DNA of 64,000 nucleotides from Bacteroidia bacterium (GTDB lineage Bacteria; Bacteroidota; Bacteroidia; Cytophagales; JAAEPT01): the NCBI GenBank assembly GCA_030431525.1, contig JAUIJC010000003.1:62001-126000 (forward strand), written 5' to 3'. Under the pieces are notes generated by a model. That model was not told the origin of the DNA and ran no database searches. It saw only the letters and a list, made by a program, of their open reading frames with translations. A program made the translations under genes and the position numbers. This document shows, in pieces, positions 41,135 to 42,799 of this stretch (the stretch's first letter is position 1; each line of letters opens with the position of its first letter).

Positions 41135-41214
41135 GTGGTTATACTTTAGGATTTTCGTACACAAACAGCCAGTTTTTCATACGAAGTCCTTTAAGGAATA
41201 AATGACTTAGGATA

Positions 41215-41243
41215 CAAAAAAAGGCTACCCAAAGGGGTAGCCT
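41215..41243 (-). terminator. Rho-independent terminator of tRNA gene
   Basis: Perfect 9-bp arms (41222-41230 and 41235-41243) with a 4-nt loop, followed on the minus strand by seven T residues. It lies 14 bp past the tRNA 3' end, so the tRNA and its intron form a single transcription unit. Confidence 0.92.
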
Positions 41244-41293
41244 AATGTTTTGGGTGTGGGCCCACCTGGACTCGAACCAGGCACCTACTGATT

Positions 41294-41978
41294 CACCTTC
41301 CAAAAGTTTCCTTGAGGGGTAGGACTATATCATCACCCTCGACTTTACGTTAGGGTGGGGGGCGTTCGTGACGGTAATTAAGGGAACTTTGTCCAAAAGG
41401 ACATCCCTCCGTTAGTCTCTGCACCTTCCTTGGGTGTACCCAAAGCTTGGCTCAGGATTGCCATCAGCATTACCTGTTAAGGTTTCCCTGAGTTAACCCC
41501 CTTGGCATCCATGGGTTTCCCCATGGAGTCACCGTGAACGAGTTTAACTACATTGTTAATTTGTAATTCGGGATTATGTTCTTCTGCATGACAATTAGCA
41601 CACAAAAGAATACATTTTTTAAGCTCCTTCCTTAAAGAATCTTCTCGTTTATTCGATAGACTTCGAAGACCCAAGGGAAATTCTTTGTGTTCAGCTTCCA
41701 AATGATGGAAGTGAAGGGCAGAAAGATTTTTATTATAACCACAATGCTGACACATTCCTCCTAATTCTTCCACAAACTTTAGCTTTCTTTTCAAAGCTCG
41801 AATTGTTTGTGAGTGATAGGTATTAGTTTGTGTCTTTATGTGGTAATAATGGTGTTTTTGTTTGCAACGATTGCTACAAAACTTAATCTTTTGCCCAGAA
41901 AGAGGCTTTCCACAGATTACACAACTATTCATATACGCAGAATAGTTCTTTCAACAAATAAGTTCAGACCGCTCGTTG
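41294..41978 (-). ncRNA. Group I intron (IC3-like) in tRNA anticodon loop
   Basis: The 5' exon ends in CAU and the intron ends in G, as group I splicing requires. The core lies in the last 240 nt. The guide sequence GUGA (41532-41529) pairs with exon UCAU through the G-U wobble at the splice site. The P2 hairpin at 41526-41509 has a GAAA loop. Next come CUCAGGGAAACC, the P-Q region GGCAAUCCUGAGCCAAGC (41462-41445), the R element GUGCAGAGACU (about 41424-41414), CCCUAACGU near P8, and the S element GAUAUAGUCC (41331-41322). These strings match tRNA introns of cyanobacteria (Leu-UAA) and Azoarcus (Ile-CAU). The endonuclease gene fills the P1 loop. Confidence 0.93.
41477..41932 (-). CDS. Intron-encoded HNH homing endonuclease
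   Basis: A 151-residue protein. An N-terminal zinc ribbon has Cys4, Cys7, Cys19 and Cys23 (CVICGKP, FCSNRCK). A basic helix SQTIRALKRKLKFVEE follows. The HNH domain has CQHC (61-64), the His pair in LHFHHLEAEH (75-82) and LLCANCHAEEH (109-119) with zinc Cys111/Cys114. It probably nicks or cuts intronless tRNA-Ile genes to spread the intron. The gene begins 47 nt inside the intron in the P1 loop. Its last 18 codons (from Gly134) overlap the guide sequence and P2 of the ribozyme, so those residues are constrained by RNA folding. Intact, so possibly active. Confidence 0.92.
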   Translation of the reverse strand: MNSCVICGKPLSGQKIKFCSNRCKQKHHYYHIKTQTNTYHSQTIRALKRKLKFVEELGGMCQHCGYNKNLSALHFHHLEAEHKEFPLGLRSLSNKREDSLRKELKKCILLCANCHAEEHNPELQINNVVKLVHGDSMGKPMDAKGVNSGKP

Positions 41979-42056
41979 ATGAGTCAGTTGCTCTAACCGG
42001 ATGAGCTATAGGCCCATAGGGAAAACCGATGTTCTCCCTATTTGTTTTATGTGGCA

Positions 42057-42175: not shown

Positions 42176-42799
42176 ATGAACGGTATAAAGAATATCATTT
42201 TTGACTTGGGTAATGTGATTATCGACATCGATTTCGACCTGACCTACAGGGCTTTTGCGGAATTGGTGGGTAAGCCCATGGACGAGGTTTATGCCGAGAT
42301 GGAAAGGTTGGAGGTGTTCGACCGTGTGGAAAAGGGACATTTTACGGATTTGGAGTTTGTTCAATTCCTTCGTGAAAAAATGGCCATTGAGGCGGATGAC
42401 AAAACAATCATCGATGCTTGGAACGCCCTCTTGTTGGATGTGCCGAAGGAGCGAACAGAGTTGATTTTTAAGCTCAGAGAAAAGTACAATGTCTATGTGC
42501 TGAGCAATACGAGCAACCCACATATTATTGAGGTGAACAATATCCTTGAGCGCCAAACGGGTGTGAAGGATGTCAAAGATTTATGTGACAAGGCATTCTA
42601 TTCCTATGAAATGGGACTTCGCAAGCCAGGGACTGAAATCTATGAGGTGGCCTTGAAAGAGCAGGGGCTCGTGGCTGAGGAAACCTTGTTTTTGGATGAC
42701 CGCCTTGATAACCTGCAGGGCGCTGAGGCTGTAGGAATAAAGACCATTCATGTAGAAGCGCCCAAGTCCATCATGGACTATTTAGGTGGATGGGTTTGA
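42176..42799 (+). CDS. HAD-superfamily hydrolase (YihX-like phosphatase)
   Basis: A 207-residue HAD phosphatase. Motif I is FDLGNVIIDID (Asp near 10 with an Asn in place of the usual second Asp in DLGNV, as in YihX and epoxide-hydrolase N-terminal domains). Motif II is VLSNTSNPH, motif III is around GLRKPGTEIYE, and motif IV is LFLDDRLDNLQGAE. The helical cap sits between residues 17 and 90. YihX-type members remove phosphate from sugar phosphates such as glucose-1-phosphate. The start at 42176 matches the family N-terminus. Confidence 0.9.
   Translation: MNGIKNIIFDLGNVIIDIDFDLTYRAFAELVGKPMDEVYAEMERLEVFDRVEKGHFTDLEFVQFLREKMAIEADDKTIIDAWNALLLDVPKERTELIFKLREKYNVYVLSNTSNPHIIEVNNILERQTGVKDVKDLCDKAFYSYEMGLRKPGTEIYEVALKEQGLVAEETLFLDDRLDNLQGAEAVGIKTIHVEAPKSIMDYLGGWV

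Follow-up and report, generated by a model that had tools for sequence, protein, structure and literature searches.

We have found a group I intron in the anticodon loop of a tRNA-Ile2(CAU) gene of a Bacteroidia bacterium, on the reverse strand of the 64,000-nt stretch of DNA analysed here (the window). We put the probability at about 0.8 that this is a mobile, self-splicing intron that interrupts the cell's only gene for this tRNA and is spread by an HNH homing endonuclease encoded within it. The locus would then hold a mobile ribozyme in a probably essential tRNA gene, at a site that escapes ordinary tRNA annotation; it makes testable why group I introns choose anticodon loops and how they cross between phyla. 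The coordinates of the features are collected in Table 1.

Table 1. Features of the intron-bearing tRNA-Ile2(CAU) locus (positions in the window)
Feature	Coordinates	Strand	Evidence or remark
Pre-tRNA, tRNA-Ile2(CAU)	42015-41257	-	37-nt exon, 685-nt intron, 37-nt exon
5' exon, 37 nt, last base U36 (...GACTCAT)	41979..42015	-	spliced cloverleaf; identical half-match in genome
Group I intron, 685 nt, first C 41978, terminal G 41294	41294..41978	-	RF00028; exact empty allele (CAT directly followed by AATCAG) in relatives
3' exon, 37 nt, first base A37	41257..41293	-	spliced cloverleaf, anticodon CAT
HNH-type endonuclease ORF, 151 aa, ATG 41932, TAA 41477	41477..41932	-	ORF list, alignment, AlphaFold, omega
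P1 extension, 5' strand AACGAG	41972..41977	-	pairs with CTCGTT 41542-41537
P1 extension, 3' strand CTCGTT, closes ORF-holding loop	41537..41542	-	long-range pairing
Internal guide sequence GGUG	41530..41533	-	GUG (41532-41530) pairs with anticodon CAU; GGTG invariant in 15 introns
P2, 7 bp, GAAA cap	41509..41526	-	7/7 pairs change on both sides across relatives
P3, 5' strand; partner G41363-C41358	41496..41501	-	15-intron pair counts
P4-P5 domain (P4 CUCAGG/CCUGAG)	41451..41492	-	P4 paired in 100% of cells
P7, 5' strand GACUA (guanosine-binding site), partner UAGUC 41327-41323	41413..41417	-	invariant in 15 introns
Extra P7-P3 hairpin (P7.1-like), absent from Azoarcus	41367..41412	-	outer stem covaries across relatives
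P8 (CACCC...GGGTG)	41334..41357	-	15-intron pair counts
P9, GAAA loop	41302..41319	-	15-intron pair counts
Probable intrinsic terminator, hairpin and T-run directly downstream of tRNA	41213..41243	-	sequence
HAD-family hydrolase, divergent, upstream neighbour of tRNA	42179..42799	+	upstream flank kept in related genus

When joined, the two exons make a canonical 74-nt tRNA with a CAU anticodon and every stem paired, in agreement with a preliminary description of this DNA. That description was also right about the length and position of the insert, its guide sequence and its GAAA-capped P2 (a 7-bp helix), while it overlooked both the HNH ORF (41932-41477) and the long-range extension of P1. Its placement of the border after U36 holds as well, being fixed by the sensible anticodon, by the G that ends the intron and by a U.G pair at the 5' splice site, where U36 faces the GUG guide; the 3' end of the intron reads GGTG, followed by AATCAG of the exon. 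The 3' exon does not encode CCA. Plain ARAGORN (no intron search) reported no tRNA in the window; with the option -i it joined the exons, set the border two bases off and miscalled the gene Gln(CTG).

The genome has 53 further tRNA matches, four of which carry a CAU anticodon (two identical elongator Met genes and two identical initiator genes). Unlike these four, the split gene has C4-G69 and C5-G68, the TilS elements of tRNA-Ile2, and TilS is encoded in the genome (191 bits). Its anticodon, its distinctness from the Met and fMet genes, the two base pairs and the presence of TilS together identify it as tRNA-Ile2(CAU). Neither a second Ile2(CAU) gene nor a UAU tRNA was found among the tRNAs of this draft assembly, and 7.5% of the isoleucines in 26 long window ORFs are encoded by AUA. 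With a single Ile2 gene found, TilS present, no UAU tRNA found and AUA in use, splicing of the intron is probably essential for the cell, as had been proposed for the case that this is the sole AUA reader. The tRNAs found in the draft also include neither tRNA-Ile(GAU) nor tRNA-Ala(UGC), which presumably sit in collapsed rRNA operons; a second tRNA-Ile2 copy in unassembled sequence is thus conceivable. That the whole locus is a dead tRNA relic, with AUA read by another tRNA, gains something from the draft state of the assembly. We regard it as extremely unlikely in view of this tRNA inventory, the retention of TilS, the intact pairing of the exons and the maintained pairs of the ribozyme core.

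The upstream flank in a related genus appears to code for a similar HAD-type gene. Since this neighbour is apparently shared with relatives, the tRNA locus looks native and the intron looks like the part that came into it. Elsewhere in the same genome (L051, C58:39685-39757) a degenerate tRNA-like sequence of 41.9 bits lies beside Thr and Tyr tRNA genes; ARAGORN rejects it. In another genome of the family (G001, 84% complete), a search for an empty site gave as its full-length match a tRNA-Val(UAC), which has no bearing on the intron site.

The intron aligned end to end with the Rfam group I model RF00028 (1-253 of 253; 93.1 bits, E = 1.3e-22). With a cut-off of 50 bits this full-length score is far beyond chance, and the covariance-model check suggested in the preliminary description is thereby passed. 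No other group I intron was found in the 4.24-Mb genome. The sequence features of a group I intron are seen: a P3-P8 core with a guanosine site in P7, a U.G pair where the 5' splice site lies, and a terminal G. Across 15 related introns 92.6% of the cells are paired, and both-sided changes occur in 27 of the 48 pairs, vs 13.3 after shuffling; the covariation score of 0.424 compares with 0.149 for shuffled and at most 0.103 for slid versions. P9 of the window intron contains two mismatches. The additional P7-P3 hairpin is shared by all introns of the window lineage; its outer stems (pairs read by eye) are ACGG/CCGT, AGAAG/CTTCT, AAGTG/CACTT, GGAGG/CCTCC, CCTG/CAGG and GTGG/CCAC.

Most of the intron is occupied by the 151-aa ORF, which lies within the P1 loop. 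The long-range duplex that extends P1 is present in the window intron and in every other ORF-bearing intron tested. The N terminus of the encoded protein is zinc-finger-like (C4, C7, C19 and C23) and is followed by the residues of an HNH core (C61, C64, H76, H77, C111, N113, C114 and H115); the catalytic motif (H76, H77, N113 and H115) and the zinc cysteines are invariant across eight relatives. The AlphaFold model is of fair quality (pLDDT 80), and Foldseek searches with it gave weak matches, mostly to HNH nucleases, the best with an E-value of only 0.09. Pfam gives the protein no name, the Pfam HNH family being reached only below cut-off and for a relative; a sequence search of solved structures yielded no useful match, and a search of plasmids found no relatives. 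In the codon analysis omega lay at 0.05-0.10 for the Runella-type copies and did not exceed 0.15 for the others, values that indicate purifying selection and thus a maintained protein. The final codons of the ORF overlap P2, P3 and P4. As this C-terminal tail is absent from two Runella proteins, it is likely a passive overlap with the ribozyme core. We infer that the product is an HNH-type homing endonuclease, which would cleave DNA and drive homing.

The locus would then work as follows. In the transcript the guide GUG would pair with the CAU anticodon, to which the P1 extension would deliver it across the 450-nt ORF loop; the ribozyme core, acting without help, would excise the intron in two guanosine-initiated transesterifications, and TilS would convert the spliced tRNA to an AUA reader. 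In the DNA, the endonuclease would recognise and cut the CAU anticodon-loop region where the tRNA gene is free of the intron, repair on an intron-bearing copy would insert the intron, and the insertion would destroy the endonuclease target.

Group I introns occur in 29 of 390 sampled genomes of the order, a dozen of them in tRNA-Ile(CAU). The named carriers (Runella zeae, Runella limosa and Emticicia agri) place the window in their order. The share of sampled genomes with such introns is about 7-8%, both within the order and across the phylum; the Bacteroidota setting emphasized in the preliminary description stands, and it is not an isolated one. Within one genus, three genomes (G284, G013 and G030) have an intact tRNA locus in which CAT is directly followed by AATCAG, and three others (G260, G296 and G344) have an intron at the identical spot; the upstream flanks of empty and filled loci are 72-90% alike over ∼1.2 kb. 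All six strong matches to the endonuclease family elsewhere in the order lie within tRNA-Ile(CAU) introns. The ORF is frameshifted in one relative (L075), carries a stop in another (L052) and is absent from the introns of five more (L053, L059, L060, L071 and L072). The endonuclease ORF thus sits inside the intron that it would mobilise, orthologous alleles exist without the intron, and the combination of empty and filled alleles with broken or lost ORFs is what a homing cycle should leave behind.

The same observations bear on the idea that the main role of the HNH protein is to help splicing, as a maturase, or that it acts on the tRNA instead of DNA. In phages the family adjoins the matching tRNA isoacceptor (see below), which would fit an enzyme working on that tRNA. 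Three of the ORF-less introns (L059, L071 and L072) have similar cores, however, so that splicing seems independent of the protein; HNH nucleases dominate the Foldseek matches, known proteins that combine HNH with zinc fingers have a DNA-nuclease fold, and the empty and filled alleles and the ORF decay fit homing. We therefore find a role in splicing or on the tRNA quite improbable and retain the homing endonuclease.

Outside the order, the closest cellular relatives of the endonuclease are also tied to tRNA-Ile introns, in other layouts. A member from Peregrinibacteria (L084) lies antisense inside a tRNA-Ile intron with an inferred site after U33, and a gammaproteobacterial one (L085) lies ∼100 bp outside an intron-bearing tRNA-Ile. 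In Acidiferrobacterales (L086) a 17-residue HNH remnant beside an intron-bearing tRNA-Ile is likely the relic of a decayed adjacent endonuclease. Two further observations concern tRNA-Ile loci of the phylum. In Runella zeae (L082, ∼1527-1575 and 1833-1881) the 5' half of the tRNA, followed by the first intron bases, recurs as two decayed copies upstream of the intron-bearing tRNA-Ile, and in a genome outside the window's order (L261, G633) a tRNA-Ile(CAU) holds an ORF-less group I intron.

The Azoarcus IC3 intron is inserted after U36 and uses the CAU/GUG guide pairing. The host tRNA, the insertion site and the guide pairing of the window intron are thus those of the Azoarcus sp. BH72 tRNA-Ile(CAU) intron; the match in host tRNA and site had been pointed out in the preliminary description. 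With similar strings in P4, P6 and P7, this likeness would suit an IC3 tRNA intron of the Azoarcus/cyanobacterial type that jumped between phyla, its ORF being incidental. The core tree separates the two: the window lineage groups with two gammaproteobacterial tRNA-Ile introns, two Bacteroidota tmRNA introns (L055 and L058) and one tRNA-Met intron (100/99), whereas Azoarcus falls with the Leu(UAA), fMet and Arg introns. A tree constrained to unite all tRNA-Ile introns was rejected (AU p = 0.037). The tree is based on an alignment of ∼200 columns, with a provisional Azoarcus sequence, and is therefore good, not final, evidence for separate lineages. On the same Azoarcus sequence, that intron lacks both an ORF and the P7-P3 hairpin of the window lineage, and IC3 membership of the window intron, in the sense of clustering with the Azoarcus and cyanobacterial Leu introns and of lacking P7.1, is not seen. 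Together with the strong purifying selection on the ORF, these results make a jump of an IC3 intron unlikely, and the close relationship to the Azoarcus and cyanobacterial tRNA-Leu introns that had been proposed at first, whether by descent or by kinship, finds no support. Instead, two intron lineages appear to have reached the same tRNA-Ile site, for which the evidence is again good but not final. Horizontal movement of the intron, also part of the preliminary description, is supported by comparison of genomes: its presence is patchy, orthologous sites are empty or filled, and it has gammaproteobacterial relatives.

Several elements of this picture are already on record, among them tRNA-Ile2 introns, tmRNA introns of Bacteroidia, HNH genes in phage tRNA clusters and collaborative homing. 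The nucleases of two comparison systems have folds other than HNH: that of I-Ssp6803I is PD-(D/E)XK, and T4 SegB, the phage example, is a GIY-YIG enzyme. The intron with I-Ssp6803I also occupies another tRNA, the tRNA-fMet of Synechocystis (cited in PMC3984707). The origin of the Azoarcus sp. BH72 intron from tRNA-Ile is documented (PMC6274277). Like the window, Acidovorax and Burkholderia have group I introns in tRNA-Ile2; the accessible part of the report states that tRNAscan-SE is not designed to detect them and mentions no endonuclease (PMC8450103). The tmRNA introns, some of them from the class Bacteroidia, share with the window a P7.1 region and, for L055 and L058, the lineage in the core tree; they differ in their T-loop site and in having few endonucleases, of the LAGLIDADG type (PMC11915505). 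Free-standing HNH nucleases are known from phage tRNA clusters, for example Felix O1 ORF44 beside tRNA-Ile and those of mycobacteriophages (PMC6409571), and the phage relatives of the window protein are of this kind, whereas the window gene sits inside a ribozyme. Collaborative homing pairs an intron with an adjacent free-standing endonuclease; the cases described are in phage protein genes (PMC10448857), and the gammaproteobacterial L085 has the matching layout at a tRNA-Ile. Our search of the open-access literature turned up no Bacteroidota tRNA-Ile intron, no tRNA intron carrying a member of this endonuclease family and no mention that the family matches tRNA type.

Members of the family are common in viral contigs, where they are free-standing and have a tRNA within 100 bp at 100 of 134 loci; Felix O1 ORF44 overlaps a tRNA-Ile by a few bases. 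The window protein is 51-61% identical to three members beside tRNA genes (L102, L161 and L162), with which it shares a clade (SH-aLRT 99). One clade with SH-aLRT 99 holds all 31 members whose nearest tRNA has a CAU anticodon, the window's included, and this label changes 6 times on the family tree vs 25 times when shuffled. A CAU tRNA lies within 150 bp of 27 of the 30 viral clade members and of 3 of the 48 members outside (Fisher p = 2e-14, with members counted as independent despite their relatedness). For the comparison of tRNA types, the single nearest tRNA was replaced as a label by any tRNA within 150 bp. The former made the ties to Asn and Arg tRNAs look weaker than they are, since in many cases a variable tRNA overlaps on the downstream side, whereas the constant partner is found ∼60 bp upstream.

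A gene order common to related phages could in principle produce such a tie between clade and tRNA: related phages are indeed the source of some of the loci, and several of the cluster orders are seen more than once. Under the new label, a tRNA within 150 bp is common to both partners in 55 of 78 best-hit pairs (25.4 when shuffled), whereas tRNAs >300 bp away are shared at chance level (18 of 59 pairs, 17.9 expected). The placement of the CAU tRNAs, upstream or downstream of the HNH gene and on one strand or the other, speaks against an operon. In addition, bacterial introns in Ile, Asn and Arg tRNAs repeat the rule. A tRNA-Asn(GUU) intron from Bacteroidota outside the order (L090), confirmed by in silico splicing, encodes an HNH protein whose best phage matches mostly adjoin tRNA-Asn. 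The tRNA-Arg(UCU) introns of the window's order carry an antisense HNH protein, and those of its best matches that have a nearby tRNA adjoin tRNA-Arg(UCU). Mere gene order is thus an improbable explanation; the enzyme lineage matches the tRNA type for three tRNAs (Ile, Asn and Arg), in phages and in introns.

It seems to us rather probable, at a level well below that of the main reading, that a single HNH family has split into lineages that would each recognise the anticodon-loop region of one tRNA (CAU, GUU or UCU). The family would spread as free-standing genes in phage tRNA clusters, which would serve as a reservoir of mobility, and would have repeatedly joined group I introns of the matching bacterial tRNA, whether outside the intron, inside it in antisense or inside P1 in sense. 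The window endonuclease would accordingly have originated from the phage tRNA-cluster family. If the family does track tRNA isoacceptors, a phage-borne enzyme would set the target, and its specificity could be read from gene neighbourhoods. As only 4 of 25 adjacent phage CAU tRNAs have both TilS pairs, the partner is claimed here only as a CAU tRNA (Ile2 or Met).

Group I introns are also seen in other Bacteroidota genes, and plain ARAGORN misses or mis-phases the intron-bearing tRNA genes of the phylum. They lie in tRNA-Leu(UAA) (L061, L063, L069, L073, L074 and L080), tRNA-fMet (L065-L067, L070 and L077), tRNA-Arg(UCU) (L068, L076, L078 and L079), tRNA-Met (L056), tRNA-Asn (L090 and L262) and tmRNA (L055 and L058); four further matches (L264, L281, L282 and L283) are in apparent 23S rRNA. 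In two of the tRNA-Arg(UCU) introns (L076 and L079) the HNH ORF is antisense, on the strand opposite to the window's arrangement. A probable tRNA-fMet intron (L070, in genome G284) encodes a PD-(D/E)XK endonuclease (Pfam PDDEXK_5, E = 5e-50), which seems to be of the same type as I-Ssp6803I, known from cyanobacterial tRNA-fMet. The HNH protein encoded in two of the tRNA-Leu(UAA) introns (L074 and L080) is a different one; its N-terminal region is apparently DNA-binding, and its matches to the NCBIfam models ZorE and IscB are weak.
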